From Microcoleus sp. FACHB-672 (GTDB lineage Bacteria; Cyanobacteriota; Cyanobacteriia; Cyanobacteriales; Oscillatoriaceae): DNA of 64,000 nucleotides. A model generated the notes under the pieces. The model saw only the letters and a list, made by a program, of their open reading frames with translations. It was not told the DNA's origin and made no database searches. The position numbers and the translations under genes are program-made. The stretch is taken from contig NZ_JACJOU010000033.1 of NCBI RefSeq assembly GCF_014695725.1, forward strand, positions 124,001-188,000, in the 5' to 3' direction. Each line of letters starts with the position of its first letter. Position 1 is the first letter of the stretch. Positions 14,661 to 31,700 of this stretch are shown here, piece after piece.

Positions 14661-15197
14661 TTAACCGTCTTCAGCAAAAGCTGACTCAATGTAATCGATA
14701 AGCGTGAGTTTGCAACCTGGAGCGAAGACGGGTTGACCCAATATAATTGGTTGCCCGAAGGCGTAACTGCCGGCATCCATCCCTATTTCACAATCTTGTA
14801 TTTGCGTAGGCGCGAGTGGCTCAAAGCTAACAAGCGCCACATCAAACCGGCAGGGTAAATCAGCAAAATCCGGGCACTCTGCCAGAAACATCTCAGCAGC
14901 TTTCCTCAGTTTTGCTTGCTTTTGCTCAGTGATAGCTAAAAGTCCGCCGGCATCCCAATTCCACCGGCGACGAGTCTTAACTTCTACAAACGCCAAGGCT
15001 GTTTCCTGCAATCGACACTCAGATCCACTCGCTTGCTGAGCGATGAGATCGAGTTCACCCCACCGGCAGCGCCACCGCCGGCGTAGAATTACCCAACCGC
15101 GCTCCTGCAACCAGTGAGCCACCAAATTTTCCCCAAGCGTGCCGGTGTCAGGTTTGCGATTCTCGCCGGCAGAGGGTGATGAGGGAAAGCTTGGCAT
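14661..15197 (-). CDS. YraN / UPF0102 family protein
   Basis: The 178-residue protein carries the restriction-endonuclease-like core of the UPF0102 family: 'LGENLVAHWLQERGWVIL' followed by 'RWGELDLIAQQ' (Glu-x-Asp) and 'ALAFVEVKTRRR' (E-x-K), the arrangement of a PD-(D/E)xK fold. A role in DNA handling is suspected for the family but not established. Usual family length is about 120 residues; here a 50-60 residue C-terminal extension ('LEPLAPTQIQDCEIGMD' region) is present. The gene is divergent from the pentapeptide gene and convergent with the unknown 14231 gene. Confidence 0.85.
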   Translation of the reverse strand: MPSFPSSPSAGENRKPDTGTLGENLVAHWLQERGWVILRRRWRCRWGELDLIAQQASGSECRLQETALAFVEVKTRRRWNWDAGGLLAITEQKQAKLRKAAEMFLAECPDFADLPCRFDVALVSFEPLAPTQIQDCEIGMDAGSYAFGQPIILGQPVFAPGCKLTLIDYIESAFAEDG

Positions 15198-15347
15198 AAA
15201 GCAAACTCACAGCATTCATTTAACTGGTAGGATTACGAGATAGGAAGCATCGGTAACAGTTGTTACTTTTATTCCCCTCATCAAACAGTGGCAGCCAGCC
15301 GGCTATACCCTGTTAAGGATAAGGTTTCCTATCAACGTAAAAACCGA

Positions 15348-15857
15348 ATGAATCATAGCTTTATTAAGCGTATCCCAGCAATCCTCCTCAGCGCACTCTT
15401 GTGCACTGTCGTGTGCCTGACAGCCATTGGTGCCCTAGCAACCCCTGCGTTTGCGAATGAATACGACAAAGAAATTCTCGTCAATATGGATTTCTCAGGC
15501 AAAAACCTGACAGACTCCAGCTTTAACAAAGCCAACCTGCGCGGTAGCAATTTCAGCCATACCAATCTGCAGGGCGTTAGCTTATTTGGGGCGTATTTGG
15601 ATGGAGCAAATTTTGAGGGGGCGGATATGCGAAACGCCACCTTAGACACTGCTCGTTTTACCAAAGTCAATTTATCCAACGCAATTTTAGAAGGTGCCTT
15701 CGCTTTTAATACCAAATTTGAAGGTGCCACGATTGACGGCGCAGATTTTACCGATGTGCTGCTGCGCGAGGATACCCAGAAATTGCTTTGTCAGATAGCG
15801 ACAGGGAAAAATCCAGTCACGGGTAGAGATACGCGCGAAACGCTTTACTGTGATTAA
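15348..15857 (+). CDS. Lumenal/periplasmic pentapeptide-repeat protein
   Basis: Read from the ATG at 15348 the protein has 169 residues. It starts with a Sec signal ('MNHSFIKRIPAILLSALLCT...', likely cut after 'TPAFA') and then runs of A(D/N)LxX pentapeptides: 'FSGKNLTDSSFNKANLRGSNF', 'LDGANFEGADMRNATL', 'ATIDGADFTDVLL' (shown in part). These stack into a right-handed quadrilateral beta-helix. A tail with two cysteines, 'LCQIATG' and 'ETLYCD', may form a disulfide, as in thylakoid-lumen pentapeptide proteins. An upstream in-frame start at 15288 would bury the signal and is rejected. A decayed copy of its 3' end lies at about 24680-24740. Confidence 0.85.
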   Translation: MNHSFIKRIPAILLSALLCTVVCLTAIGALATPAFANEYDKEILVNMDFSGKNLTDSSFNKANLRGSNFSHTNLQGVSLFGAYLDGANFEGADMRNATLDTARFTKVNLSNAILEGAFAFNTKFEGATIDGADFTDVLLREDTQKLLCQIATGKNPVTGRDTRETLYCD

Positions 15858-16180
15858 TGATGTGGCACGGGTGATGCTGCCATAGACATTACCCGTGCCG
15901 GCATCTTTAATCTCCATTAACGGAATTAAGCTATCACCAACATCTGCGTTTATCTGCGGACGAAGGTGGAACTTGAATGACGAGCAAAGCACATTCAAGT
16001 TTCACCTGCGGAATCTGCGGTTAAAAAATCAAACCCATCAACACTAACCAACAATCTAAGATACAAAATTCCCGATCCAAGGCAACTGCACCAAATCAGA
16101 AAACGTAGTATGACGCTGCCGATCTAATTCTTGAATGCGAGCTTGTTCAGCATAAAGTTGCTGTAAATAAAACTCAAAAA
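15800..16180. repeat. Left direct repeat flanking the kdp cluster (pentapeptide 3' end to dnaG 3' end)
   Basis: This stretch matches about 24680-25033 in the same orientation. It runs from the end of the pentapeptide gene through the spacer into a copy of the dnaG tail. GAAACGCTTTAC at 15837 matches 24720, CCCGTGCCGGCAT recurs in both spacers, and 16055-16180 matches 24908-25033 with about four or five differences. Indels in the spacer make the right copy about 30 bp shorter. It is one arm of an apparent integration duplication. Confidence 0.85.
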
Positions 16181-16183
16181 TAT
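16055..16183 (-). pseudogene. Truncated copy of the dnaG 3' end
   Basis: On the minus strand this encodes the last 41 residues of primase followed by the stop, 'YLQQLYAEQARIQEL...LVQLPWIGNFVS', identical to the intact dnaG C-terminus apart from one Ser-to-Phe change. Three of the four clear base differences are silent, so the two copies seem to have diverged while both were functional genes. Upstream of this point the sequence no longer resembles dnaG. The 120 bases from 16184 to 16303 hold nothing recognisable. Confidence 0.88.
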
Positions 16184-16303
16184 TGGAGTTTTATTTCAAA
16201 CTATCTTAACATTCTGAGAGCCTAAACTAAGACGCTCCACTCTCATCACGATTTTACATGATATTGTATATAACTTTAACCTAAATTCGGCTTACTTATC
16301 TAA

Positions 16304-17455
16304 CTAACTTTGTATTTTTTCTGTTGCGATTATGTGTAAGTCAATATGTTTTAGTTCTCGCATCAATTGTTGAATCAAAGATCCTTTCATTAGTAACTGC
16401 CAGCGTGAACGCTGAGTCTCGCCCAGCACAATTTGAGTAATGTGATATTTTTCCGCCACCTCAGCAATTGCTTGGGAAATATTGGAACTGGTGAAGCGCA
16501 CAAATTCACCTCCGAATTCTTTGCAAAGTTTCTCACAGGTTTCGATATGAAGGCTCTCTTGCTTATTAAGAAAGCGCTCAGGATGATTCACAAACACTGC
16601 GTAGAGTTTAGCATTCATATAGTTAGCGATTCGGGAGCCGCGACGCAGCAACTGCATCCCATTAGGGTAAGTCGAAACACAAACTAACACGCGTTCGTGA
16701 ATATTACAAAATTGACCCGATGAGGTGTTGGAATTAGCATCATCCTCAACAAAATCCGCCACTTCTCGCAGCGCCAACTCTCGTAAGGCAATCAAGTTTC
16801 GGCGTTGGAAAAAGTTTTCTAAAGATTGTTGAATTTTCTCTGGTGCGTAGATTTTACCTTCCATCAGCCGCTCTTCTAGGGTTTCCGGGGTAACATCAAT
16901 AACAATTACCTCATCCGCTTCATCTAGCAACCGATCAGGGATGCGCTCTCGCACCACAACGCCGGTAATTCGAGCTACCAAATCATTGAGGCTTTCTAAG
17001 TGCTGAATATTAACAGTGGAGTAAACATCAATACCGGCAGCTAAAATTACTTCAACATCTTGGTAGCGCTTCTCGCGTAGAGAACCGGGAACGTTAGTAT
17101 GTGCGAGTTCATCTACTAACACCAACTGAGGAACTCGTGTCAAAATCGCATCCGTATCCATTTCGGTGAGTGTCATGCCCCCTCGCAAGATTTGTTGGCG
17201 AGGCACCCTCTCCAAACCTTCGGCTTTTTCAGCAGTTTCTCGACGTCCGTGGGTTTCTAAAAGCCCAATAACAACATCAATCCCTTCCCGCTTAATCTGA
17301 TGAGCTTCTTCTAGCATCCGGAAGGTTTTACCGACGCCAGGAGCCATGCCAATAAAAATTTTGTGCTTCCCGCGCCGGCCAGAACGATTGTAAGTTTTAT
17401 CCGACGAATTGCTAGGGAGGTTGGGAGTACCTGTAACTTCGCTAGAGTGAATCAT
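16304..17455 (-). CDS. kdpD: Short KdpD (N-terminal KdpD and Usp domains only)
   Basis: The 383-residue protein covers only the cytoplasmic N-terminal half of KdpD. It has the KdpD domain with a Walker A 'GMAPGVGKTFRML' and a Walker B-like 'LVLVDELAHTNVPGS', then a universal-stress-protein-like domain ('RVLVCVSTYPNG' to 'LHIIATEK'). The membrane segments, GAF and histidine-kinase parts of the 890-residue E. coli protein are absent. Short KdpD forms are known from cyanobacterial kdp operons such as those of Anabaena. It cannot phosphorylate a regulator by itself; it may sense K+, ATP or c-di-AMP (the latter known for some KdpD Usp domains) and pass this to another kinase. It is the last gene of the kdp operon, 91 bases after kdpC. 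Confidence 0.92.
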   Translation of the reverse strand: MIHSSEVTGTPNLPSNSSDKTYNRSGRRGKHKIFIGMAPGVGKTFRMLEEAHQIKREGIDVVIGLLETHGRRETAEKAEGLERVPRQQILRGGMTLTEMDTDAILTRVPQLVLVDELAHTNVPGSLREKRYQDVEVILAAGIDVYSTVNIQHLESLNDLVARITGVVVRERIPDRLLDEADEVIVIDVTPETLEERLMEGKIYAPEKIQQSLENFFQRRNLIALRELALREVADFVEDDANSNTSSGQFCNIHERVLVCVSTYPNGMQLLRRGSRIANYMNAKLYAVFVNHPERFLNKQESLHIETCEKLCKEFGGEFVRFTSSNISQAIAEVAEKYHITQIVLGETQRSRWQLLMKGSLIQQLMRELKHIDLHIIATEKIQS

Positions 17456-17546
17456 CAGGAATTAATTTTTAGCTTCATTTTTCAGAATTCATTTAACCAA
17501 TCAGAATTTGATAAAATGACAAGAAACTTTAGAAATATGGTAATTT

Positions 17547-18134
17547 TTATTTACCCGTTTGTAAAGCATCTAAAGCCAAATTTAGTTTGAGGGTGTTAAC
17601 ACCCGATTCACCAAAAATTCCGAGAAATCTCCCGTCAACATATTTAGAAATCAGAATTTCAACCTGATTCGTATCTAGCCCTCGCGCCTTTGCCACTCGT
17701 TGAATTTGGGTGCGGGCAGATTCTTCACTAATGTGAGGATCTAAGCTCGATCCAGATGTGTAAACTAAATCCGCTGTAGGCTTGATATTTGCCTGGTTTA
17801 GCCGGCTAACTTCCGATTGAATTCGTTTTACCAAATCTGGATTGCTGGGTGCGAGATTGCTAGCACCAGAAATGCCAGTTTGTTTAGCCGCTTCTCCTGT
17901 ACTGTAGTTCGTGGTGCTGGGGCGACTCCAAAAATATCGCTCTGAAGCAAAAGGCTGACCGATTAAAGCCGAACCCACAACTTGCCCTTGGGCATTTTTA
18001 ATCAAGCTGCCATTGGCTTGATAAGGAAAAATCAGGCCAACACCCAGCATGAAAAAGGGATAAATTAAGGCCGTTAATACCCATAAAATTAGGGTCATGC
18101 GAAGGCCAACAATCGTTTCTCGAATTAGAGACAT
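17547..18134 (-). CDS. kdpC: Potassium-transporting ATPase subunit C
   Basis: The 195-residue protein has one N-terminal membrane segment ('LRMTLILWVLTALIYPFFML') and the KdpC periplasmic domain with 'GSALIGQPFASERYFWSRPS', 'ASNLAPSNPDL' and 'GSSLDPHISEESARTQIQRVAKARGL', shown in part. KdpC stabilises the KdpA-KdpB complex and raises its affinity. Length is normal for the family. It follows the kdpG/F gene by 49 bases in the same operon. Confidence 0.95.
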   Translation of the reverse strand: MSLIRETIVGLRMTLILWVLTALIYPFFMLGVGLIFPYQANGSLIKNAQGQVVGSALIGQPFASERYFWSRPSTTNYSTGEAAKQTGISGASNLAPSNPDLVKRIQSEVSRLNQANIKPTADLVYTSGSSLDPHISEESARTQIQRVAKARGLDTNQVEILISKYVDGRFLGIFGESGVNTLKLNLALDALQTGK

Positions 18135-18183
18135 TTTTTCCTCGGCTGCTTTTTCTTTGATCCTTTGTTTTTAATGCTGCCTT

Positions 18184-18453
18184 TTAAAATCGTTCTGGTT
18201 GGAAAATTACGACAAATAAATAGAGAGAAAGTCCCAACGTTACAAGACCTAAAAGGCTAATTGTCCAGGCAGTGAATCGCTCAATTTCTCTGCCGGCAGC
18301 CCCATAAACTGCGGGTGCGATCACCAGGTTCAAACACATTAAGAGAAACAATTGCACCGGCACCCGATTTTTTCCTCGCAGCATCCCGGCGAAATCCAGA
18401 GTTTCAGCTAAATTACCAGCCAGAATTGTATCAAACAGCTTAATTTTTCTCAT
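18184..18453 (-). CDS. KdpG/KdpF-like small membrane protein
   Basis: An 89-residue protein between kdpB and kdpC. Its middle is a hydrophobic helix ('VPVQLFLLMCLNLVIAPAV') and its C-terminus, 'LGLVTLGLSLYLFVVIFQPERF', resembles the ~29-residue KdpF peptide that binds and stabilises the E. coli Kdp complex. In Anabaena an extra gene named kdpG lies at this place in kdpABGCD. I therefore read it as that gene, with a KdpF-like tail fused to an N-terminal extension. The function of the extension is unknown. It is only 21 bases from the end of kdpB, so the two are almost certainly co-transcribed. Confidence 0.75.
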   Translation of the reverse strand: MRKIKLFDTILAGNLAETLDFAGMLRGKNRVPVQLFLLMCLNLVIAPAVYGAAGREIERFTAWTISLLGLVTLGLSLYLFVVIFQPERF

Positions 18454-18474
18454 GGCTTTTTTTCCTATCTCTTT

Positions 18475-20574
18475 TCAAACCAACCCGACAGCAGAAATCG
18501 CAATATCAATAATTTTGATAGCAATAAACGGTGCGATAACTCCCCCCAGCCCATAAATTAGAATGTTGCGTTGCAGCAATTGATTAGCAGTTAGCGGCTT
18601 GAATTCTACACCCCGCAGCGCCAAAGGAATCAAAGCGGGAATAATCAGGGCGTTATAAATGAGTGCCGAGACAACTGCTGAATTTGCACTGGATAATCCC
18701 ATTACATTAAGGCTACCAATTCCTGCCGGGGCAAACATCGCCGGAATAATTGCGAAGTATTTGGCAATATCATTAGCAAGAGAAAAAGTCGTCAGCGCAC
18801 CGCGCGTAATTAGCAACTGTTTGCCAATCGTAACCAAGTCAATTAGCTTCGTGGGATCTGAATCCAAATCCACCATATTCGCTGCTTCTTTTGCCGCCTG
18901 AGTGCCAGAATTCATCGCTAATCCAACATTTGCTTGGGCGAGTGCCGGCGCATCATTGGTGCCATCGCCGGTCATTGCGACAATTTTGCCTTCCGCTTGT
19001 TCGGCTTGAATTACAGAAATTTTGTCTTCCGGTGTCGCTTCCGCAATAAAGTCGTCCACACCGGCTTCATCAGCAATCACAGACGCTGTAATTCGATTGT
19101 CGCCAGTTAACATCACTGTCCGCACCCCCATTCGCCGCAATTGGTCAAAGCGTTCGCGGATACCGGGCTTAATAATATCTTTGAGGTAAATAACGCCGTA
19201 AATCTTGCCATCTTGACAAACGGCTAGAGGTGTCCCCCCAAGACGGGAAACTCGTTCGTAGGCGGCATCGAGTTCTGGCGTGAGATTGCCGCCGCGAGAG
19301 CGCACAAAGCCTTTAATCGCATCGACCGCGCCCTTTCGCACCTCACGGCCATTGGGCAAGTCTGTACCACTCATGCGCGTTCTGGCCGAAAATTCTATCC
19401 CTTCGGCTTGGCTACGGTCAAAATCAATGGTTGACCCTAATGTCTCTGCTAGGCGAACGATAGATTTCCCCTCTGGCGTTTCATCAAAGACGCTGGCAGT
19501 CAGCGCCACACCGGCAGTCTCCTCGATTGAGTAGCCATTGACTGGAATAAACTCCTCTGCCAGCCGGTTGCCCAAAGTAATCGTGCCGGTTTTATCCAAA
19601 ACGAGAGTATTGACATCCCCGCACGCCTCAACAGCGCGTCCAGAAGTTGCCACCACATTAAATTGAGCCACCCGATCCATGCCGGCAATCCCGATCGCAC
19701 TCAGCAATCCGCCAATCGTTGTGGGAATCAGCGCCACCAATAGAGAAATTAAAATCGCCACACTCACGGGACTATTCACATAGTTAGCCACCGACGGCAA
19801 CGTTGCCACCACAATCAAAAAGACTTGGGTTAAAACCGCCAGCAAAACCGTTAGGGCAATTTCATTCGGTGTTTTCGACCGTTCAGCGCCTTCCACCAAA
19901 GAAATCATCCGGTCAATAAATCCTTTTCCGGGGTCAGCACTTACCCGGAGTGTGAGTTCATCCGAGATAATTCGCGTCCCGCCGGTGACGGAACTGGCAA
20001 TATCAGACCCCGGTTCTTTAAGCACCGGCGCAGATTCGCCGGTAATCGCAGATTCATCGACCGAAGCAACGCCGGCAATCACCTCTCCGTCCGCAGGAAT
20101 CATATCGCCGGCAATCACTTTCACCAAATCGCCTTTTCTCAGCGCAGTTGAAGAAACTTCCTGCACCGATCCATCGGGTGCGAGTTTGCGGGCAACTGTA
20201 TCAGATTTCGTCGCCCGCAAGGCATCCGCTTGTGCCTTCCCCCGCCCTTCTGCCACTGCCTCCGCAAAATTGGCAAATACGACGGTAAAAAATAAAATCG
20301 TCGTAATTAAACCGTTTAACAATCGCAGATTTTCTCCCTGTACTGTGCCAAACAGGTTGGGATCGACCGTCAGCAGTGCAGTGACAATTGTGCCAACCCA
20401 AACGATGAACATGACGGGGTTTTTGACAGTATTTCTGGGGTCAAGCTTGACAAATGCCTCGCGAATTGCTCTTTGATAAAGCCCTTTTGTATTGACCTTG
20501 GGTGTGTGTCTGCGGGAGTCGCGTGGCCCTTCAGGCCGGCGCACAGGTTTAGCAGAAGAATTGGCAGATGTCAT
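18475..20574 (-). CDS. kdpB: Potassium-transporting P-type ATPase subunit B
   Basis: The 699-residue catalytic subunit of the high-affinity K+ pump. The phosphorylated Asp327 lies in 'LVLDKTGTI'; the actuator loop is 'ITGES'; the hinge is '[14 protein letters not shown]'. Membrane segments frame these domains at both ends. The basic N-terminal extension ('[19 protein letters not shown]') is slightly longer than in E. coli (682 residues). It hydrolyses ATP to drive K+ that enters through KdpA into the cell. It follows kdpA by 55 bases. Confidence 0.97.
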
Positions 20575-20629
20575 AGTTGTGAGGAAAGTTTTTTAATGCC
20601 GGGATTGATTGCAGAGAAATTGCGTTCCG

Positions 20630-22312
20630 CTAACCTTTGGCGAGTTGAAAGGCTTCGGCGATGGGGCCAAGCGCTAAAACCGGGAAAAAGGTTAAAGCAC
20701 CGAGAATTAAAATTACGCCGGCTGTAATGCCGGTGAATAGCAGGCTGTCGGTTCTGAGGGTGCCAGGAGTTTCGGGGACAGGTTGTTTGTTTGCCATACT
20801 GTCAGCCAGCAGCAACAAGGCAACAATCGAGATGTAGCGTCCTGCCAAGAGGCTGAAACAACAGCTTAGGTTCCACCAGAGAGTTGCATCTCCCAATCCC
20901 TCAAAGCCTGAACCATTGTTGGCGGCAGCCGAGGCGTACTCGTAGACAACTTGAGAAAGACCGTGAAAGCCTGGGTTACTGATGCCAGCGAGGGTTTCAG
21001 GAAAGGCGAGGGTAATGGCACTCGGAATCAAGACCGCGATAGGGTGGACGAGTAGCACCACACTGGCAAGAACGATTTGCCACTTTTCAATTTTGCGTCC
21101 CAGAAATTCTGGGGTTCGTCCGACCATTAAGCCGGTGAGAAATACGGTCAAAATTAGGTAAATAAATAAGTAAGCGGTGCCGGTGCCTTGTCCGCCCCAG
21201 ACGATTTGCAAAAACAAGTTAAACAAAGTCGAGAAACCACCGGCAGGCATCAGGGAATCGTGCATTCCGTTAACTGCCCCTGTCATGGTGCCGGTGGCGG
21301 CTACTGCCCAAAATGCTGTTGCTGCCCAACCAAACCGAACTTCTTTGCCTTCTAAATTCGGCTGATCTCCTGCTGCCAAAATAGAATTAACCAGCGGATT
21401 GCCTTGATATTCACCAATCGCAGTTACGCCGACTAGAATGACAAAGATGATGAATACCATCCAAAATATCAGCCAAGATTGTTTGGTGTTTTTTGCAAAT
21501 ATCCCGTAGGTGTAGATTAGTGACGCCGGGATACACATCATGGCAAGTGTTTCAATTAAGTTGGTCGCCCCGTTGGGATTTTCAAAAGGATGTGCGGAGT
21601 TAATACCAAAAAATCCGCCGCCGTTTTCTCCAAACTGTTTGATCGCTTCAAAGTGAGACACCGGCCCTCTGGCAATTACCTGAGTTGCTCCTTCTAAAGT
21701 GGTAACGGTTTCTGGGCCGGCTAAAGTTTCTGGAACTCCCAGAATCAGTAATAGCAATGCCCCCACAACCGAAAGCGGAAGCAAAATTCTGGTAATTGAT
21801 TGAATCATATCTGCATAAAAATTGCCGACGGGTCTGCCGGTTAAGCCCCGAATAAAAGCAATTCCTACAGCTAAACCCGTTGCGGCGGATGTAAACATCA
21901 AAAAATTTAGCGTTAGCTGGCTTAAATAACTGAAGGTTGTTTCGCCGGCGTAATGTTGCTGGTCTGTATTTGTCAAAAATGAGATTGTTGTATGTAGCGC
22001 TAAATCCCAGCTAGGTGCTGTTAAGCCAGTAGGATTCAGAGGCAGAAGCCCCTGAAACATAAAAATTAAATAAACTAAAAAGCCCATTGCCAGGTTGCTG
22101 AGTAGCAAAGCACGAGCATACTGCCTGCCGGTCATTGCTTCGAGCGAACGCAATCCACCGGCGCTGTAGATAACTCGTTCAACAGGTCTCATTACGGGGT
22201 CAAGAAAGGTTTTATTTCCCTGAAATACTTGCGCGATGTAACTTCCGAGTGGGCGTACAATTGCCACCAAAATGATTAGAGTTAATGCAATCTGAATGAA
22301 TCCTTGGAACAT
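20630..22312 (-). CDS. kdpA: Potassium-transporting ATPase subunit A
   Basis: The 560-residue channel-like subunit, nearly the same size as E. coli KdpA (557). About ten membrane segments and four pore loops are visible; one contains '[19 protein letters not shown]', a selectivity-filter loop diagnostic for KdpA, and another '[15 protein letters not shown]'. It binds K+ from the periplasm and hands it to KdpB. It is the first gene of the operon; its start is 440 bases from the divergent sensor kinase gene, with a palindromic candidate operator in between. Confidence 0.97.
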
Positions 22313-22752
22313 AAATAGCCACGAATCTCTGTTGTAAACTAAACAAAATTGATGAATTTCTAATTTTTTCCACTAAGGGCCGGCTTAGCGACTTCTTCGT
22401 AAATAGATAGCTGGAACAAATTCTTGATTAAGTTTTTGAAAGTGTTTAAACTTAATCAAATACCACAAAACTGAAAATATTTTTTCACGTATAATTCGCA
22501 AACCTGACTGATTTAATTAGGAAGTTAGCTGATTTTAAAAGTTTTATTTTGAATAATCAATATCTAAAAGGTGATTTGGGAAAGATTACACAAAGCAATA
22601 TATTTTTTAAGTTATATTGAGATTCACTGCGTTTAGCTTTGATCTATAACAACAGATATAGATCAAAACTAAACACGCATTTTGACTGAATCCAAATTGC
22701 TTGTCTGCGTTTAATCTTGATCGGTAGGTTCTTTAAACCATAGCTGTTCAGA
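22313..22752. promoter_or_regulatory. Divergent promoter region between kdpA and the sensor kinase
   Basis: A 440-bp AT-rich region separates two divergent units. It contains a long palindrome at 22631-22674 (listed separately) and, at 22708-22725, a further half site GCGTTTAATCTTGATCGG that resembles the left palindrome arm with its preceding bases, GCGTTTAGCTTTGATCTA. No clear -35/-10 pair was found for kdpA. Confidence 0.5.
22631..22674. promoter_or_regulatory. 18-bp palindrome, candidate operator for the kdp region
   Basis: GTTTAGCTTTGATCTATA (22631-22648) and TATAGATCAAAACTAAAC (22657-22674) are inverted copies with one mismatch around an 8-base spacer. The inner 11 bp, TTTGATCTATA, pair perfectly. 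The position, about 80 bases before the kinase ATG, and a related half site at 22708 suggest a dimeric regulator such as the NarL-type protein encoded at 23903. Confidence 0.5.
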
Positions 22753-23856
22753 ATGGCCATCAAGTTCTCAACGCTCAAAGAAAAGCTGTTAAAGTCTAAC
22801 CAGCGCTTCAACACGAACTGGCTGATGGCTGGCTTATTAGCGATTGTTCTGGGACTGGAGTTTTCCACGCCGCCGGCTTATGTCTTTGGCTACTTCTACA
22901 CCGGCGCGATTTTGTTGGTACATCCCCGCCGGAGTAAGTCTGCAACGGTGCGAGTAACGCTGGCAGCTTGTGGTTTAACTTTGTTAAATCTCGTCTTTCC
23001 CGTTTTGGAAGCTTTCGACTCCGCAACTTTAGCCAACCGATTAATTGCAGTGCTGGCGCTAGTTGTCACCGGCTGGTTAAGCGAACGCAACCAGCAGTAT
23101 GAGGAAGCACTCGCTCGACAGCAAGCGCAACTGCAAGCACAAGCGCAACTCGCAAGTTTGCGTGAAGATTTTGTATCCACGTTAAGTCACGACCTCAAAA
23201 CCCCCCTACTCGGTGCCATTGAAACTATCAAATCCTTTCAGCAGCAGCAATTTGGTGCAGTCACGCCGGCACAACAAAAAGTGCTAGAAATGATGGTTCG
23301 CTCTCACCGCACCACGTTACAACTCGTTGAGACACTGCTAGATGTGTATCACAACGATACAGAAGGACTTCAACTGCGCAGATCGCCGGTGAATTTAGTT
23401 GCCATTGCTGAGGAAGTGATTGCGACCCTCATCGATTTAGCTGCAACCCGCCAAGTCTATATTCGTTTAAGTTATGGAGAATCTGATTTCCGCCGCTCAT
23501 TTTGGGTAAACGGGGATGCCTTGCAATTGCAGCGAGTTTTTGCCAATTTACTGACCAATAGCATCAATCACTCTCCTCGCGGCAGTAAGGTAGAAGTCGC
23601 AATGCAATCACAGTCCGCCTATCAAGTTGTGAAAATTACTGATGATGGGCCAGGAATGAGCGCAGACGAACTGCCTCACTTATTTGAGCGGTTTTATCAA
23701 GGACACAGTAATCGCCACGCCAAAGGTTCTGGGCTGGGTTTATATTTGACGCGCCAGATTATTACCGCCCATGATGGTACAATTTGGGCGGAAAATCGAT
23801 TGCCGCACGGGGCAATGTTTGGCTTTAAATTGGCAGCTTGCTTTCCTAAATCCTGA
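22753..23856 (+). CDS. Membrane-bound sensor histidine kinase
   Basis: The 367-residue kinase has three to four hydrophobic segments in residues 22-110 with very short loops, so it likely senses within the membrane. The catalytic part has His146 in 'STLSHDLKTPLLGAIE', an N-box 'NLLTNSINHSPRG', 'DDGPGMSADE' and 'GSGLGLYLTRQII'. It starts the divergent unit opposite kdpA and precedes a NarL-type regulator by 46 bases, so the two form a pair. The co-located kdpD lacks its own kinase domain. This pair is a plausible replacement for the KdpD kinase/KdpE system, but that is inferred from position only. Confidence 0.92.
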   Translation: MAIKFSTLKEKLLKSNQRFNTNWLMAGLLAIVLGLEFSTPPAYVFGYFYTGAILLVHPRRSKSATVRVTLAACGLTLLNLVFPVLEAFDSATLANRLIAVLALVVTGWLSERNQQYEEALARQQAQLQAQAQLASLREDFVSTLSHDLKTPLLGAIETIKSFQQQQFGAVTPAQQKVLEMMVRSHRTTLQLVETLLDVYHNDTEGLQLRRSPVNLVAIAEEVIATLIDLAATRQVYIRLSYGESDFRRSFWVNGDALQLQRVFANLLTNSINHSPRGSKVEVAMQSQSAYQVVKITDDGPGMSADELPHLFERFYQGHSNRHAKGSGLGLYLTRQIITAHDGTIWAENRLPHGAMFGFKLAACFPKS

Positions 23857-23902
23857 GTTGTGATTCCTCTATGCTCCATCCTTTTTCAAGGATTAATCAC
23901 TA

Positions 23903-24577
23903 ATGAGCGCAGTGCAGATTTTGCTAGTAGAAGATGACGAACTATTTCGCCTTGGTCTTTCAATGCGGTTACAAAAGGAAACGGGATTGGACGTAGTGGC
24001 GGAGGCGGAAGATGGCGATACGGCTGTGGAATTAGCGAATCGGCATCCACTCGACATTGTTCTGCTTGATGTGGGACTGCCTGGAATTGGGGGCATTGAA
24101 GCTTGTCGCAAAATCAAGCAGCAACATCCAGAATTACCAGTTTTAGTGTTAACGTCTCACTCACAAAAGCCTCTAATTGCGCGGTTAATTGAAGCCGGCG
24201 CTCATGGCTACTGTCTTAAAGGAATTGCAGCACAGGCTTTGATTTTGGCGATCCGTTCGGTGGCTGCCGGCGCTTCTTGGTGGGATAAGGCAGCAACGAC
24301 GGAAATTCGAGCGGCTTTTGCAGACAACGACTTAGTTGCTGCCTCACAATCGGCACATACAATAGAAAATCAGTTGACAAAGCGTGAACAAGAAATTTTG
24401 GCATTGGTGGCTGCCGGTAAAAACAATCAAGAAATCGCACAAATGCTTTACATTGCCCCCGGTACAGTGCGGGTTCATGTCCATGCTATTTTGCAAAAGT
24501 TAGAGGTGCGCGATCGCACGCAAGCTGCTATCCTCGCGCTACAGAAAGGATTGATTGATACAAAACTTTTGGCTTAA
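23903..24577 (+). CDS. NarL/LuxR-family response regulator
   Basis: The 224-residue regulator has a receiver with phosphorylatable Asp56 ('DIVLLDVGLP') and acidic pair 'EDDE', and a C-terminal LuxR helix-turn-helix at about 153-212 ('LTKREQEILALVAAGKNNQE', 'APGTVRVHVHAILQKL'). It would bind DNA as a phosphorylated dimer. The canonical Kdp regulator KdpE is an OmpR-type protein, so this is a different family. One of only four HIP1 octamers in the window (24510-24517) lies inside the HTH coding part. Confidence 0.93.
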   Translation: MSAVQILLVEDDELFRLGLSMRLQKETGLDVVAEAEDGDTAVELANRHPLDIVLLDVGLPGIGGIEACRKIKQQHPELPVLVLTSHSQKPLIARLIEAGAHGYCLKGIAAQALILAIRSVAAGASWWDKAATTEIRAAFADNDLVAASQSAHTIENQLTKREQEILALVAAGKNNQEIAQMLYIAPGTVRVHVHAILQKLEVRDRTQAAILALQKGLIDTKLLA

Positions 24578-24908
24578 CATCTCATCTGTGGATATCGTTA
24601 TTTGATAAACTCAGACAACTGACGTTTCAAAACAGTGTATTTTTTCTGATGTCCGGATAAGTTTGTTGCAACTTCTTGCCGCAAGGAATTTCCATCCAGT
24701 TAAGGATCGAGAAACTCGTGAAACGCTTTACGGTGATTCATGATGTGGCACAGGTGATGTTTAAATCGGTAAAATCCAACCTATTAGTAAGCATTCCCGT
24801 GCCGGCATTTTCAATCCCCATTGGCGCTATCATCTGCATATGCCTAACGGCACGCTGCGCTATCATTTGCGGTTAGTAAAAACCAAACCATCGACTTTTA
24901 CACAAAGT
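24578..24908. pseudogene. Spacer with decayed copy of the pentapeptide gene 3' end
   Basis: About 24680-24740 aligns with the last ~20 codons of the pentapeptide gene (15800-15857). GAAACGCTTTAC-GTGATT-ATGATGTGGCAC is nearly identical in both, and the preceding 24 bases match at roughly 17 positions. In the frame that corresponds to the intact gene the copy has several stops, so it is not functional. The following bases match the spacer after the intact gene and contain a CGCAGAT-type repeat remnant around 24833-24877. Confidence 0.7.
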
Positions 24909-25033
24909 CTAAGATACAAAATTCCCGATCCAAGGCAACTGTACCAAATCAGAAAACGTAGTATGGCGCTGCCGATCTAATTCTTGAATGCGAGCTTGCT
25001 CAGCATAAAGTTGCTGTAAATAAGACTCAAAAA
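24680..25033. repeat. Right direct repeat flanking the kdp cluster
   Basis: This is the partner of 15800-16180, in the same orientation. It holds the decayed pentapeptide tail, the spacer and the last 42 or so codons of the intact dnaG gene. The portion 24908-25033 is about 96% identical to 16055-16180. Together the two copies bracket about 8.5 kb that contains only the kdp operon and its kinase-regulator pair. Confidence 0.85.
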
Positions 25034-26927
25034 GATCAGGATTCGTCTTGCTGTCTGTATTGCGCCATAAATCCAGAAATAAACGATAGCGTTTCTCACA
25101 CATTACCCGCTCTATAGAAGCAGCAGCAGCGCGGATAACGAGCGGAGTTCGCAAAATTTCCTGCTTCGTTCTTTCATCTAAATGAAATAGGGGAGAAATA
25201 ACAGCCATATCCTCAGACAACTCCAAGCAACGATCTTGAAGTGTCGAAATAAGCTGTGCCGGTGTTGAGCCGGCAGTCGGAATCTCCGAAATCTGCCGCC
25301 ATAAAAATCGATGATGAGATAAACTAAATTCTAAATCTCGTTCTTCTAAAGCATCAAGAACCGCCTGCCGATGTTCAGGGTAGTGGAGATAAATCAGCAG
25401 CAGTAAAGCTTCAGCTTTTTCTAAAAGATTGCGTTCAGAAGAAAGCGGAAGTGCTTGAGCAGGATTTGACTTTGGGGTGCCGGCACGACGCACGAAACGT
25501 CGCTTATTTTGTTGCAAGCGGCTTTCGATAAACGGCGCAAACCGACACGACTCATCATGGCTGAGAAGTTCGTCACAGTAACGAACAATTTGACTCAGAA
25601 GGTTATCCGCCAATAAAGGTTGCCGGCGAGAATCACCCTGGCTCAAAAGTTCGGCACAGCGATTGATGTAGTGAGTTAACTGATTATCATTAGAAATATT
25701 ACACAATAACTTCACCATTGCCGTCGCCACTTGCTGAAACTGATCCGCTTGTGTCAAGTTGCGCTCAAGTAAAGTTTGCTGGATTTTCCAATCAAGCCAC
25801 AGAGAAGCATTTGCTAAAAGTTCTCGATACTGTTCAGAAGAATAAGTTTTGAGAAATTCATCCGCATCTTTACCCTCGGGAATATTAAGAATTCGTAACT
25901 GTACTTCACCCCGATAAGCCAAATCGGCGATTTCTCCAATCGCTCGTGCTGCCGCATTCGTGCCGGCTTTATCCGCATCAAAATTAAGCACAATTTGCTT
26001 CGATTCTGTGTGGCGGAGCAACTGACGCACTTGATCGATACTGAGAGCAGTTCCCAAAGAAGCAACAACATTGGCAATACCGGCAGCGTGAAGCGCGATC
26101 GCATCAAAATATCCCTCCACCACCACCGCTTGATCTTCTTTAGAAATCGCATTTCGCGCTTTATCTAGAGCAAACAAGGTTCTGCCTTTGTCAAATAGCT
26201 CAGTTTCCGGAGAATTGAGGTATTTCGGTTGCTCATCCGTCAAAGTTCTACCGCCAAAACCAATCGTTCTTCCTTGGATGTCGTGAATGGGAATAATCAA
26301 ACGCTCACGAAATCGGTCATAATAGCCGCTTCCCGACTTGCGCGGTGCAATTAAACCGGCTTGTTCCACCAACTGCACCGGCTGCTGTTTGACTTCCACC
26401 AGATAGCGGTAAAGCGTATCCCAGCCGGCAGGTGCATAACCGAGTTGAAACTGCTGAATCGTTTCTTGGCTTAGTTGCCGCTCAGATTGCAAATACTCCA
26501 GCGCCAGTTTGCCTTGAGGTTGCGTGAGCGCGTGTTGGTAAAAACTGGATGCAATTGCCAGAATTTCATACAATTGCTCTCTGATGGAAATTTGGCGCTG
26601 AAATTCCTGCCGGTGTTCGGCTTGCAGGGTTTTGATCGGCACCTGATAGCGCTTCGCCAAATCTAACACTACATCGCTATAGGATTGCTTACCCACTTCC
26701 TTAAGAAACCCAATCGCATTACCGCCGGCATTACAGCCAAAGCAGTAGTACATTTGCTTCCCAGGACTTACCGTAAAGCTAGGTGATTTTTCCTCATGGA
26801 AAGGACACAAGCCCACATAATCCTTCCCGCGCTTTCGCAGTACAACGTGTTCGGAGATAACATCGACAATATCAACGCGTTGCTTAACTTCTTCAATGGT
26901 GTCTGGATGCAGGCGGGGAATGTCCAT
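24909..26927 (-). CDS. dnaG: DNA primase
   Basis: The 672-residue primase makes RNA primers at the replication fork. The N-terminal CHC2 zinc finger has Cys41, His44, Cys62 and Cys65 ('CPFHEEKSPSF' and 'YYCFGCNAGGN'). The TOPRIM core has the metal-binding 'VVVEGYFDAIAL' and 'LNFDADKAGT'. The C-terminal region (from about 430) is the helicase-binding part. The gene is complete. A second copy of its last 41 codons lies at 16055-16183. Confidence 0.97.
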   Translation of the reverse strand: MDIPRLHPDTIEEVKQRVDIVDVISEHVVLRKRGKDYVGLCPFHEEKSPSFTVSPGKQMYYCFGCNAGGNAIGFLKEVGKQSYSDVVLDLAKRYQVPIKTLQAEHRQEFQRQISIREQLYEILAIASSFYQHALTQPQGKLALEYLQSERQLSQETIQQFQLGYAPAGWDTLYRYLVEVKQQPVQLVEQAGLIAPRKSGSGYYDRFRERLIIPIHDIQGRTIGFGGRTLTDEQPKYLNSPETELFDKGRTLFALDKARNAISKEDQAVVVEGYFDAIALHAAGIANVVASLGTALSIDQVRQLLRHTESKQIVLNFDADKAGTNAAARAIGEIADLAYRGEVQLRILNIPEGKDADEFLKTYSSEQYRELLANASLWLDWKIQQTLLERNLTQADQFQQVATAMVKLLCNISNDNQLTHYINRCAELLSQGDSRRQPLLADNLLSQIVRYCDELLSHDESCRFAPFIESRLQQNKRRFVRRAGTPKSNPAQALPLSSERNLLEKAEALLLLIYLHYPEHRQAVLDALEERDLEFSLSHHRFLWRQISEIPTAGSTPAQLISTLQDRCLELSEDMAVISPLFHLDERTKQEILRTPLVIRAAAASIERVMCEKRYRLFLDLWRNTDSKTNPDLFESYLQQLYAEQARIQELDRQRHTTFSDLVQLPWIGNFVS

Positions 26928-27199: not shown

Positions 27200-28762
27200 T
27201 TATAATTCTAAATTATCTAAATCCAACGGTTTTAAAACTGAGCGGTTTCTTCCCTCAGCTTTAGCTTGATAAAGTGCTTTATCCGCCACAGCCATTAAAA
27301 TTGAAGGGTTCAGTGGATTTTGGGGAAGTAAGCTAACAACGCCCAAACTCAAAGTCACATATTGACTGATCTCAGACTTGGCGTGATCCATCTTAAGACT
27401 TTCAACTTCATTTCGCATATTTTCAGCGATTTGTAAAGCTCCATCAGCATGGGTATTAGGCAGAATTATTACGAATTCTTCGCCGCCATAACGAGCAACT
27501 GAATCTGCTGGACGCTTGAGCACATCACTAATTGTTTGAGCGATCTTCTGCAAGCAAAAATCTCCAACTAAATGACCGTAAGTATCGTTATATTGTTTAA
27601 AATAATCTAGATCGCACAAAATTAAAGACAAGGGTAATCTCTCTCGTGCCATCCGCCGCCACTCTTGGTTCAAGGATTCATTAAACCAACGACGATTCGC
27701 AACTCCTGTCAACTCATCCACCGTTGCGAGGCGGTGCAGTTTCAGGTTAGCTTCTTTAAGAGCGGCTTCAGCTTTTTTGCGCTGAACAAGCGCACCTAAT
27801 TGGGTTGCAACGGCATTAACTAGCTCAATCAGCCGCTGTTTAGGTTCAAGCTTTTCTTTCTTAAAAAAAATCAAAACAGTTAATACTTGGTTATTAAGAA
27901 CAATAGGAATACCGAAGGTTGCTTTGAGTCCCGCATCTACGGCAAGAGCAGAGCGGAAAAAAACTGGGTTTTTGGCAACCGAAACATCTTCTATCCACTC
28001 CGGTTGTTTGGATACCCAAATTCGCCCTGGCAGTCCTGCATTTGGAGCATACGTCAACTTCTTGCTCTCAAGTTGAAATTTTTCTAGGTTCGCTTCGCTA
28101 GAATACCAAGCTCGGCTGTATTCTAAAACCTCCCGTTCCTCCTGGGGAATCCAAGCTTCTCCTAAATCCCAACCTATGGTTTCGCAAACTTGGCGAAGAG
28201 TCACTTCTAAAGCCGAGGGAAAATCTTCCGAGGCGCTAATCGCTTGCGTTATCTTCAGTAAGAGATTGGTTTCCGCTTCAGCGCGTTGGCGTTTTTTAAT
28301 TTCTTGTTGTAAGCACTTTTTTTGTTCAGTGAGCTTTTGTGTTTGCCGCTGGAGTTGAATATAAAAATCTCGAATCGTCAATTGACTTTTAACGCGAGCT
28401 AAAACCTCTGCCGCCTGAAAAGGTTTCGTAATGTAGTCCACTCCACCGGCCTCAAAGGCTTTAACCTTATCAAAGATATCATCTAGTGCGCTGATAAAAA
28501 TTACTGGGATTTTGGCTGTTAGTGGGTTCTCCTTCAGCAACCGGCAGAGTTCATAGCCATCCAAATCTGGCATCAAAATGTCTAGTAAAATCAGAGCCGG
28601 TGGAGCAGTTTGCGCGACTTTTAAAGCCAGATTTCCGTTAATCACCTTTCTAACTTGATATCCTTGCTCAGCAAGTATCGTAGACAAAACTCTTAGGTTG
28701 TCTGCGCTATCATCAACGATGAGAACATCTTCAACACAAATTGGTATGTGGTTACTACTCAT
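27200..28762 (-). CDS. Receiver-GAF-GGDEF response regulator (diguanylate cyclase)
   Basis: The 520-residue protein has a receiver with Asp61 ('ALILLDILMPD'), a coiled region, a GAF domain (about residues 185-335) and a GGDEF domain with 'GGEEF' at 426-430. An inhibitory-site motif R-x-x-D (RPAD, 417-420) lies five residues before it, so c-di-GMP product inhibition is expected. It makes c-di-GMP when phosphorylated. Its ATG overlaps the last 8 bases of the giant ethylene-binding kinase gene, so the two are translationally coupled and the kinase is the likely phosphodonor. Confidence 0.94.
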   Translation of the reverse strand: MSSNHIPICVEDVLIVDDSADNLRVLSTILAEQGYQVRKVINGNLALKVAQTAPPALILLDILMPDLDGYELCRLLKENPLTAKIPVIFISALDDIFDKVKAFEAGGVDYITKPFQAAEVLARVKSQLTIRDFYIQLQRQTQKLTEQKKCLQQEIKKRQRAEAETNLLLKITQAISASEDFPSALEVTLRQVCETIGWDLGEAWIPQEEREVLEYSRAWYSSEANLEKFQLESKKLTYAPNAGLPGRIWVSKQPEWIEDVSVAKNPVFFRSALAVDAGLKATFGIPIVLNNQVLTVLIFFKKEKLEPKQRLIELVNAVATQLGALVQRKKAEAALKEANLKLHRLATVDELTGVANRRWFNESLNQEWRRMARERLPLSLILCDLDYFKQYNDTYGHLVGDFCLQKIAQTISDVLKRPADSVARYGGEEFVIILPNTHADGALQIAENMRNEVESLKMDHAKSEISQYVTLSLGVVSLLPQNPLNPSILMAVADKALYQAKAEGRNRSVLKPLDLDNLEL

Positions 28763-31700
28763 GAGTACATTCTTGAGTCACATCAAAAAGCAGATCCAAA
28801 CGAAAATTATTGAGCAAATCTGTAAGAGTATGTGCTAAAGAAGCTTCAGCAGCAGGAATGTGTTCGATCAGCTTCAAAATTAAGGCTTCATCAGCACACA
28901 GTATTGCTTGGTGTAGCTGCGCTATCCACTCAGGAGACATGACGCTCAAATCTTGCGGGGTAAGTTTTCTGGGCGCTTCTAACTGAAGGGAATCGCTTTG
29001 CTCGTCTTCTTCGTAGATATAGCGTACTCCGAGGTGTTGAGCTATCTTGTCAAACAGTTGCGACTCCCGGAAAGGTTTATGCATGAAGTCGTCGCAACCG
29101 GCAGCCAAAATCTTAGCTTGCTGTTCCTCAAAAGCGTTAGCGGTTAAAGCAATAATTTTAGTTTTACCGGCAGATGAGGTGCCGGCTAGGGACGAGCGAT
29201 TATTCTCTTCTACACCTCCACTTTGCTGTTCCAAAGCTTTAATTTTTCTAGCCGCTTTGTAGCCGTCCATAACTGGCATTCGCATATCCATCCAGATCAG
29301 GTGCGGTTTCCAAGTTGACCACAAAGCAATTGCTTCTTCACCGTTAACCGCTTCTCGCACTTGAAATCCTAAAGGTTCAAGTAATTGTAATAGCAGCTGA
29401 CGGTTCTCTTGGACATCCTCAACTACCAGCATACGGTAGGTTGGCTGGTTTGGCTCTAACCCAATCACCCGCTGGCTACTTGATAAACTTTTTTCATCAG
29501 CTTCAGGCACCTCGTTCACCAGAACATCAAATGTAAAAATTGTCCCTTTGGCAACTTGACTGCTGACTGCAATCTTTCCCCCCATCATCTGGACAAATTG
29601 CCGACTGAGCGGTAAACCTAACCCCGTTCCTTGCATTGATTTGCGACCCGTCTCTGTTTGGACGAAGGCGTTAAATAAACTGCCAATTTCATCGGAAGCA
29701 ATCCCAGGGCCGGTGTCTTCAACTTCAAAGAATAAACAAGTTTCAAGTTTTGGATTTTGGCCATGAGATTTTCCTAGCCTCGAACCCCTCGCTTCTAACA
29801 TTTCACGCCTTTTCACGCGCAGTGCCACATGACCAAAATTCGTGAATTTAATCGCATTTCCCAGCAGGTTAATTAAAACTTGACGCAACTTATTTTCATC
29901 AGTTTGCACGTATTGAGGAATATTTGATGCCCGTTCAAAGATTAGCTGTAACCCTTTAGACGTCGCTTTGAGTTTAAGCATCTGTTCTAAATCGTCAAGT
30001 AGCTCATATAGGTCAAAGCGATTTTTATTAAGAGTGACCTGACCGGCTTCAATTTTGGCCATTGACAGAATATCGTTGATTAAACTGAGCAAATGTTCAC
30101 CACTGCGATTGATGATTTTTAACTGCTCTTTTTGGTCAACGGAAAGAGAATGGCGGCGAACCATTACCTGACTAAAACCAAGAATGGCGTTGAGAGGGGT
30201 ACGCAGTTCGTGGCTCATGTTAGACAAAAAGCGGCTTTTAGCAATGGATGCGGCTTGGGCGGCTTGGAGTGCTTTTTGCAAGGCGGCTTCTGCCTCTCTG
30301 CGATCACTGACATCTATCGCGTGGCCGACTGCTCGAATGGCTTGTCCGTCTGCATCCCTGGCGATTGTCCCATAATCTGATAGGTAAACGTAGTGACCGG
30401 CTCGATGGCGAAGCCGATATTCCAGCACGTAGTTATTTTGAGTTTTACTGGCAAATGCTTCGGATAGGTGCTGGGAAACGTTGGCTAAATCTTCTGGGTG
30501 GACGTGTTTGCTCCACCAATCAATTTTAGCTTCGGCTTCTTCGGGGTGATATCCAACGGCTTCAAATAATCCCTGCGTCCTTAAAACGATATTCTGTTTG
30601 AGATCCCAGTCGTAGATAAATCCTTTAACTGCTGATGCTGCTAGCTGAAAACGTTCGTTGCTTTGTTGCAGGGCTTGCTCCATTTGCTTGCGGTCGGTAA
30701 TATCAAAAGCTAAACCCTGAAGCACTTGAGTCTGTCCGCCGGCAGAAAGAACGAGATGGGCACGATCTCTAATCCAGATCGTTTTGCCATTGCTAGTAAT
30801 CATGCGATATTCGATACTCAATGGTTCTCCCGTCGAAATCGCAGTATTTACAGCTTGCCAAACCCGATGGCGATCTTCTGGATGCACAAAATCAGCCCAA
30901 CTATTAAAGAAGCCAGGAGACCATTCTTCGGGAGAAATCTCTAGCAATTGTTGCAGTTGAGGGCTGATATAAGCTTGCTCAGTCGTTGCTGCAATCGGAG
31001 AAATATAAACAACGCCTGGAATTTGTTCGATTAAGGTGCGATATTTATGCTCTGCCTGTTTGAGCTTTTCTTCTACTTGTTTGCGATCCGAGATATCTAA
31101 GATCACGCCATGCCAAACTTTAGAGCCATCTTCACGGTCTTCAATTTGGGCTTGGACACGTACCCATTTTTGTTTTCCAGAAGGCGCAATATTGCGCCAT
31201 TCAGAAGTGAGCGGTTGCATATTTTCAAGGGCATCAAAAATTGCTGCTTCAAACTTGGGTCGATGCTCAGGAGCAACTTGATTCTCCAGAAGATTTCGAT
31301 CTTCTAGTACCTGCTCCGGCTCAAGTTCAAATAAGTCTCGGCAACCGGCACTAACATATTCAAACTTAGCCGAACCATCAGGATAGTATCCGAAGGAGTA
31401 AAGGGTTCCCGGAACGCTGCTGGTTAAGTGTTTGAGCCGGCTTTCGCTTAACTGGAGCGCCTCTTCTGCCCATTTGCGCTCGCTGATGTCCTCAACAATG
31501 TACGACAATCTCGGACGACCGCTAGGGCCGGTTCCAATCGGGCAAACGCTGGCAGAGAGCCATTTTTGTCCGGTTGGAGTCTCGTGAGCATATTCAAATC
31601 GCACGGCAGCTTGAGTGTGTAAAGCTTCTCGGTAGTGATCGAGCCACTGTTGTAGGTGTGCTGCCGGCACGCCCATCTCAGTTGCAAACCGATTTTTCAT

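Follow-up and report, generated by a model that had tools for sequence, protein, structure and literature searches.

The window analysed here (the whole 64,000-nt stretch of Microcoleus sp. FACHB-672, G000 in the genome comparisons) holds a cassette of kdp genes between a pentapeptide-repeat gene, hereafter P, and the convergent dnaG (Table 1). All cassette genes are open, with kdpD, kdpC, kdpF/G, kdpB and kdpA on the reverse strand and a histidine kinase and a LuxR-type regulator on the forward strand. KdpA, KdpC, KdpF and KdpD score above the Pfam cut-offs and are joined by the P-type ATPase KdpB, identifying the kdp operon. The gene content is that of other cyanobacterial kdp cassettes, the kinase and regulator both being present in 17 of the 20 other loci examined; the sole special feature here is the location between P and dnaG.

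Table 1. Features of the P–kdp–dnaG region (positions in the window; L and R, left and right repeat copy)
Feature	Position	Strand	Basis or remark
P, intact, left flank	15351..15857	+	orthologue adjoins dnaG in G001 and G002
Left direct repeat (L): P 3' end, spacer, last 41 codons and stop of dnaG	15811..16183		repeat and relatives' alignments
Dispersed intergenic repeat within left spacer	15937..16035		34 genome rows for whole query, 31 to this part only
Orphan dnaG tail in left repeat	16056..16183	-	private changes 16171, 16181
Putative left (illegitimate) joint	16165..16196		inverted repeat AAATAAAACTC...GAGTTTTATTT, left arm resembling dnaG AAATAAGACTC
kdpD, short form: KdpD sensor domain and Usp	16304..17455	-	domain scan; kinase domain: none reported
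kdpC	17547..18134	-	Pfam domain
kdpF/G, KdpF domain C-terminal	18184..18453	-	Pfam domain
kdpB	18475..20574	-	P-type ATPase domains; orthologues adjoin kdpA
kdpA	20630..22312	-	Pfam domain; G001/G002 without match
Histidine kinase, divergent from kdpA	22753..23856	+	domain scan, comparison of kdp loci
Response regulator, receiver and LuxR-type HTH	23903..24577	+	domain scan, comparison of kdp loci
Relic, 3' end of another histidine-kinase gene	24604..24699	-	79% to G000 C17, 78% to G002 C28
Putative right joint, older	24694..24699		ATCCAG common to kinase 3' end and P
Right direct repeat (R): decayed P tail (24694-24759), diverged spacer, 3' part of intact dnaG	24694..25036		alignments and private-site counts
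dnaG, intact, 672 aa, right flank	24909..26927	-	ORF, domain scan, genome matches

Repeat search and gapped alignment place the cassette between direct repeats of the convergent junction, as in a Campbell-type integration. The initial annotation had described these repeats, with the end of intact P and a 41-codon dnaG tail on the left and a decayed P tail and intact dnaG on the right, and the alignments bear it out. Its further statement that only kdp genes and a kinase/regulator pair lie between them holds for kdpA to kdpD, kdpF/G and the pair, but overlooked the relic of another kinase gene, frame-shifted as read here. The copies align in blocks at 16025-16183/24878-25036 (159 nt, 90%), 15811-15876/24694-24759 (66 nt, 85%) and 15892-15918/24796-24822 (27 nt, 89%), and the spacer similarity is partly that of a repeat family, because the left spacer holds a dispersed intergenic repeat with many copies genome-wide. 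The right P remnant has an altered stop codon and several replacement changes. Between the dnaG tails, 5 of 128 sites differ; the three silent differences had been recognized among four counted initially, but there are two replacements, both in the 14 nt adjoining the left joint. Private sites lie at 24966 and 24999 in the right tail and at 16171 and 16181 in the left, a pattern that fits a reciprocal switch between resident and donor, although the sites number just four and the hairpin region accounts for two. One state is common to both tails (GCT, versus GCG in G001 and G002).

In the two congeners examined, G001 and G002, the same flanks are collinear and the P/dnaG junction is uninterrupted (about 150 bp), with no match to kdpA in either genome; the suggested synteny comparison has thus produced the adjacent convergent pair lacking kdp. 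The left repeat follows the congeners except for about 50 nt of the dispersed repeat, absent at this place in both, and its last 14 nt, and no part of their junction is missing in this strain. FACHB-672 and G001 appear as sisters in a joint tree (83%) and in three single-gene trees (82, 60 and 47%), whereas the queA tree pairs G001 with G002 (52%).

The two copies have decayed unequally. Sites private to this strain amount to 9/66 in the right P tail and 31/113 aligned columns in the right spacer; four intergenic stretches from the flanks, taken as reference, have 61/1472. Right P tail and spacer thus hold about 3-7 times the private change of this lineage's intergenic DNA (Fisher p = 0.002 with the P tail by itself, 4e-15 when the spacer is added). 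In the kinase relic, 14 of 86 sites are private against G000 C17 and G002. The left dnaG tail, in contrast, has 2 private sites in 128, both within 14 nt at the joint, and none in the remaining 114 (p = 0.001 and 8e-5, respectively, against the right P tail). Just past 25036, dnaG is not enriched in private changes (3/125, 0/125 and 3/125 in windows from 25069). By these counts the repeats differ in history and in age, and a recent tandem duplication is unlikely, because the right P tail and spacer have decayed and the left dnaG tail has not. The initial annotation had likewise argued against a recent duplication, but it derived the tails from diverged genes, a point on which these tails are uninformative: as few as 3 of 128 sites distinguish G001 from G002 here, and a donor tail would thus resemble the resident one. 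With the dnaG end this conserved, we make no claim on the crossover location from its private changes.

Both cassette ends carry sequences that may represent the joints. On the left, a hairpin follows kdpD, and one of its arms is similar to the dnaG tail; on the right, the putative joint is the hexamer shared by the kinase relic and P. The contig is 590 kb long and the two copies are not identical, so an assembly error at the left joint is not expected. The stretch left of ATCCAG in the right copy was suggested by tblastn to be P, but 18% of 1000 shuffles gave an equally high DNA score, and what the stretch does match is the end of the kinase gene. No significant similarity links 16184-16303 or 24578-24699 to the kdp flanks of G003 and G006, from the sister genus (shuffle fractions 0.10-0.93). 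In these two genomes the kinase gene to which the relic corresponds lies on the kdp contig, about 19-23 kb past kdpD; as this is the other side of the cassette, the linkage is suggestive only.

Neither an integrase-borne nor a tRNA-site island is indicated, since the Pfam scan detected no recombinase among nine proteins from P to dnaG, the longer of the listed ORFs, and the tRNA scan no tRNA in the window. Base composition gives no foreign signal either: cassette GC is 0.459, against 0.445 and 0.458 in the 10-kb flanks. In the kdp tree FACHB-672, G003, G006 and G007 are set apart from the rest (98%), and its kdp genes group with those of the family. The GC3 of kdpA and kdpB (0.47/0.49) fits the own genus (dnaG 0.41-0.42) and not the sister genus (kdp 0.60-0.69), but this does not point to the own genus exclusively, because like values occur in other genera (0.45/0.46 in G045, 0.48/0.55 in G008). 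Of 60 genomes searched, 30 have kdpA, FACHB-672 among them; in the other 29, the listed kdpA and dnaG matches never lie less than 10 kb apart on one contig, although drafts with the two on different contigs may still have them adjacent. Six cyanobacterial plasmids, among 463 plasmid records with a match, carry kdpA at 68-73% identity.

What could have brought the cassette into this junction? We consider it probable that kdp was gained laterally through one homologous exchange and one illegitimate joint. A fragment from a relative, comprising kdp, the kinase-gene relic, the decayed P tail, the spacer and the 3' end of dnaG, would have entered an intact P/dnaG junction in an ancestor of this strain. 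Homologous exchange across the common P/spacer/dnaG end would have joined one side; on the other, the illegitimate joint may have formed through a short resemblance of the dnaG tail to the hairpin that follows kdpD. The relic end would be older: an illegitimate joint at ATCCAG would have arisen there first, and the decay would have followed while this DNA was still in the donor lineage.

The most economical topology is a single crossover, and we tentatively prefer it, short of calling it probable: the trimmed fragment would have circularised at the left joint and then integrated, duplicating part of the target, with P kept whole at one end of the insert and dnaG at the other. Such a Campbell-type event was the initial proposal, and the empty junction in both congeners and the unequal age of the repeats agree with it; the left joint, however, may also have formed without a circle, through that resemblance of the dnaG tail to the hairpin. 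There is precedent in Escherichia coli, where trimmed linear DNA closed into circles and entered by a single crossover; by PCR, 56 of 60 clones had a partial target duplication, which measured 109-950 bp in the 14 of these that were sequenced (PMC3240628). As here, where the duplication is about 350 bp, one target copy was incomplete, but those plasmids were engineered from known parents, whereas the present event is natural. Against the circle stand its limited homology (about 340 bp, only about 130 well matched), the failure to find a donor among the kdpA-bearing genomes or a circular molecule in this analysis, the shared GCT state, which gives no help to a donor/resident split, and the KdpA tree, which taken alone does not group this strain with the sister genus. 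Natural transformation, if it was the uptake route, also speaks against a circle, as circularisation may be prevented or the DNA single-stranded (PMC3240628).

A linear donor, requiring no circle, is the foremost rival, though an unlikely one. In such homology-facilitated illegitimate recombination, dnaG would serve as the long homologous arm, with a crossover past the orphan tail, and short similarity would join the other end; the product is identical in sequence if the illegitimate joint falls within the homologous gene. Short similarity is present at the left joint; the lack of excess private changes in dnaG just past 25036 speaks against this route, and private changes do not show how far donor dnaG would reach. 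Most such joints in competent species have 3-10 bp of short homology, but three of four examined in E. coli had none, and the usual product is a deletion (PMC3240628), whereas here the target is duplicated and the junction of the congeners is preserved in full. The genome encodes the competence families PF03772 and DprA (PF02481), weak evidence given that E. coli, in the control set, has both. The trait in common would be one homologous anchor with one illegitimate joint, a route also proposed for T6SS immunity-gene arrays (PMC5361080).

It is improbable that kdp was inserted before the radiation of the genus and that recombination of one direct repeat with the other later removed it from G001 and G002, leaving a clean junction. 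The right-hand relics seem as old as the radiation or older, the kdp tree is family-like and the comparison comprises two congeners; yet the orphan dnaG tail should then have decayed like the P tail, and conversion by dnaG, which could have spared it, is at odds with two states that the tail retains and dnaG has lost. Two losses would moreover be required if FACHB-672 and G001 are sisters. Slightly more improbable still is the reverse polarity, in which kdp originally lay next to a truncated P and intact P with the dnaG tail arrived on the left from a relative: the sequence is symmetric and neither flank is unusual in its divergence from the congeners, but the right P tail and spacer have several times the private divergence of this lineage's own intergenic DNA. 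Insertion of a kdp fragment in one event, with about 350 bp of resident sequence duplicated, would account for short similarity at both joints but is very improbable, as the copies would be equal in age and, barring strong rate differences, 9/66 versus 0/114 (or 2/128) opposes this. Merodiploidy through alternative pairing was considered and set aside, the model yielding duplications of 100-900 kb between existing repeats (PMC3784515).

If kdp was gained laterally, as preferred here, the locus is a case of natural insertion in which the empty site, the two ends and their relative ages are legible from sequence. It would indicate that an entire regulon for an ion pump can be acquired next to dnaG with no mobile element in sight. 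With direct repeats on either side, the cassette is also predicted to be cleanly lost again, which may partly explain the patchy distribution of kdp in cyanobacteria. The footprint of gene gain without an integrase is clear, but its kind is broadly known, and none of the papers listed in our literature searches on the transfer of kdp, or on joints of this type, in cyanobacteria describes this case. Integrase-free hotspots likewise hold accessory genes by a core gene, with no integrase found; there, however, homologous exchange occurs on both sides in flanking core genes (PMC5635113), which by our reasoning would leave no torn copy.

Filamentous cyanobacteria might even use the P/dnaG junction repeatedly as a docking site that needs no integrase, its torn 3' ends offering homology for the next insertion and the cargo being exchanged, though we regard this as quite unlikely. 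Among the best 80 loci in a scan of contig collections, where records near this genome may be absent, this junction holds a SET-domain gene and an EamA transporter, flanked by similar imperfect repeats, in Microcoleus vaginatus HSN003 (L091); in L097, a related Oscillatoriales MAG, a LysE transporter and a fatty-acid desaturase are found in the same setting.

A complete kdp cassette, including a histidine kinase and a LuxR-type regulator, lies here between a pentapeptide-repeat gene (P) and dnaG. On both sides it is flanked by direct repeats of the junction at which these two genes converge. The window comes from a filamentous cyanobacterium, on a contig of 590 kb. We searched 60 genomes, this one (G000) included, among which G001 and G002 are the only other members of the genus. 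In both, P and dnaG are convergent and ~150 bp apart, each with 98% protein identity between orthologues; both lack a KdpA match and are collinear with the two cassette flanks in blocks of 89-96% identity, and DNA query 16184-18460 finds no match in either. In the wider family, P adjoins dnaG without intervening kdp in G003, G004, G005 and G007, and kdp occupies other sites in G003, G006 and G007. The empty site and the direct repeats bear out the insertion of kdp at this junction proposed in the initial annotation: the gain is real, probably recent, and leaves a readable footprint, and no integrase was found with it. A tree of five flanking genes joins G000 to G001 at 83% and is nearly star-shaped; the same pair appears with dnaG (82%), a yraN-like gene (60%) and P (47%), whereas queA disagrees, pairing G001 with G002 at 52% (the names yraN-like and queA, not dnaG, are our presumption).

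Features of the kdp insertion and of repeat-bearing P/dnaG loci (L091 and L097 in their own coordinates, all others in the window)
Feature	Coordinates	Strand	Remark
P, pentapeptide-repeat gene	15351-15857	+	left flank of kdp cassette
Left repeat	15811-16183		P 3' end, spacer, orphan dnaG tail
Inverted repeat AAATAAAACTC...GAGTTTTATTT	16165-16196		left repeat runs into it
kdpD-C-F/G-B-A	between P and dnaG	-	complete kdp cassette
Histidine kinase + LuxR-type regulator	22753-24577	+	part of kdp cassette
Histidine-kinase gene 3' end, relic	24604-24699	-	similar to genes on G000 contig C17 and in G002
Right repeat	24694-25036		decayed P tail, spacer, dnaG 3' part
dnaG	24909-26927	-	right flank of kdp cassette
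L091 repeats	12694-12895/14456-14657		SET + EamA between
L097 repeats	12543-12640/16075-16172		LysE + desaturase between

Sequence comparison indicates that the two repeats differ in age. A four-way alignment shows the left copy tracking G001 and G002 across P, spacer and dnaG tail; the exceptions are its last 14 nt and, in the spacer, ~50 nt of a dispersed repeat. Private sites (changes in G000 where G001 and G002 agree) number 2/128 in its orphan dnaG tail, at 16171 and 16181, both within the 14 nt adjoining the joint; the reference rate, from four intergenic stretches of the flanks, is 61/1472. In the right P tail the stop codon is gone, replacement changes occur and 9/66 sites are private; in the right spacer 31/113 aligned columns are private (gap columns dropped), a count possibly inflated by members of dispersed intergenic repeat families in the spacers. 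The P-tail tests are independent of the spacer figure and set the P tail apart from intergenic DNA (p = 0.002) and from the left dnaG tail (p = 8e-5 without the 14 nt, 0.001 with them). The divergence of the copies noted in the initial annotation stands. Had both copies been made together, the orphan dnaG tail should have decayed equally, and the decay is unequal; gene conversion by dnaG keeps a small chance as the cause of its intactness. The dispersed family at 15937-16035 has many copies in the genome, and a related short element in the right spacer (24824-24889) has many matches in G000, G001 and G002.

The inverted repeat at the left joint has a folding energy of -11.1 kcal/mol (50-nt stretch), and inverted repeats with perfect 11-bp arms set 3-14 nt apart occur five times in the 64-kb window. 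The matching dnaG stretch is AAATAAGACTC in the right copy, G001 and G002; we infer that the hairpin came in with the kdp fragment and that its similarity to dnaG was where the joint formed. At the right joint, the kinase relic, frame-shifted in our reading, has 14/86 private sites and terminates in ATCCAG, common to P at the same place, which we read as a putative old illegitimate joint. Its relatives are on C17 and in G002, there next to a gene which we take to encode ribosomal protein L10. The receiver/histidine-kinase gene at C17:79826-81244 (L193) is present in G002 at 94%, whereas G001 lacks a close orthologue, its top match being 67% over part of the gene's length.

How could such a structure have arisen? 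The pattern requires two steps, a homologous exchange within the P/spacer/dnaG end and an illegitimate joint. Given a precedent in E. coli, the Campbell-type crossover of the initial annotation is the most economical form of these, with somewhat less than an even chance of being right; the circle itself we infer. That study (PMC3240628) sought one-sided events; a diagnostic PCR was positive for partial target duplication in 56 of its 60 clones, and 14 of these were sequenced. The authors' explanation is that trimmed molecules re-circularised and entered through one crossover, a route ~10 times commoner in E. coli than homology-facilitated illegitimate recombination. They also suggest that in natural transformation circularisation may be prevented or the DNA be single-stranded, which counts against the Campbell-type reading. 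Competence and DprA family matches are present in G000, and likewise in E. coli of the control set. A linear donor with its illegitimate joint inside dnaG would leave an identical sequence product and seems unlikely to us; the dnaG end is conserved too strongly for the crossover point to be placed.

It is doubtful that the junction is a recurrent integrase-free docking site, torn gene ends giving homology for the next cargo: three cases underlie the idea, and the majority of the large gaps lack such a pattern. By our own count from two tables, 18/60 genomes (G000 included) have dnaG and the best P match in convergent orientation on one contig, no more than 20 kb apart. The gap exceeds 2 kb in four of them: G000, G006 (an IS200-type transposase in 2.3 kb), G008 (LysE and desaturase genes in 4.3 kb) and G045 (15.9 kb, repeat search alone). 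P lies downstream of dnaG in 26 of the best 80 contig loci, some from the same 60 genomes, with gaps of 12-4285 bp within the stretch fetched. Direct repeats are absent from 9 of 13 P/dnaG stretches searched, two of the 13 being from one genome. Microcoleus vaginatus HSN003 (L091) and the G008 record (L097), two related genomes, hold spaced imperfect repeats that resemble each other and enclose different cargo; L222 has one 24-nt pair and L117 closely spaced repeats.

The source of kdp may lie in or near the genus, which fits both tree and composition, the latter being no proof. Six concatenated proteins from 21 cassettes set G000 with G003, G006 and G007 (sister genus and wider family) apart from the others at 98%, a split repeated by KdpB (73%) and the kinase (96%); KdpA alone places the sister genus elsewhere. 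GC3 of kdpA (0.47) and kdpB (0.49) is closer to this strain's own genus (dnaG 0.41-0.42) than to the sister genus (kdp 0.60-0.69, dnaG 0.61-0.67), and is similar in several other genera, e.g. kdpA/kdpB 0.45/0.46 in G045 and 0.48/0.55 in G008. KdpA matched 463 records of a plasmid collection, six of them above 60% identity, all cyanobacterial (68-73%); kdp is thus carried on circles in the phylum, and none of the six is the donor here.

The kinase/regulator pair and the kdp genes are conserved together as one unit: among 20 other kdp loci (L160-L179, from 19 genomes) both genes are present in 17 and the kinase in 18, the regulator side being cut by a contig end in one; in L164 the pair lies ~6 kb from kdpA. 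Because of this co-occurrence, and because no kinase domain is reported for KdpD of the window, the pair is a candidate regulator of kdp. In G006 (L170, 12947-17779) part of the kdpC-kdpD stretch is seemingly doubled, with a second kdpD piece at 17132-17779 and an ORF with a kdpC-like end at 14901-15473. Elsewhere in the window, private sites rise to 18-25% of aligned columns at 31194-31443, inside a 2668-aa kinase-like ORF (28755-36761), for which either an exchanged domain or the closeness of the alignment end may be responsible.
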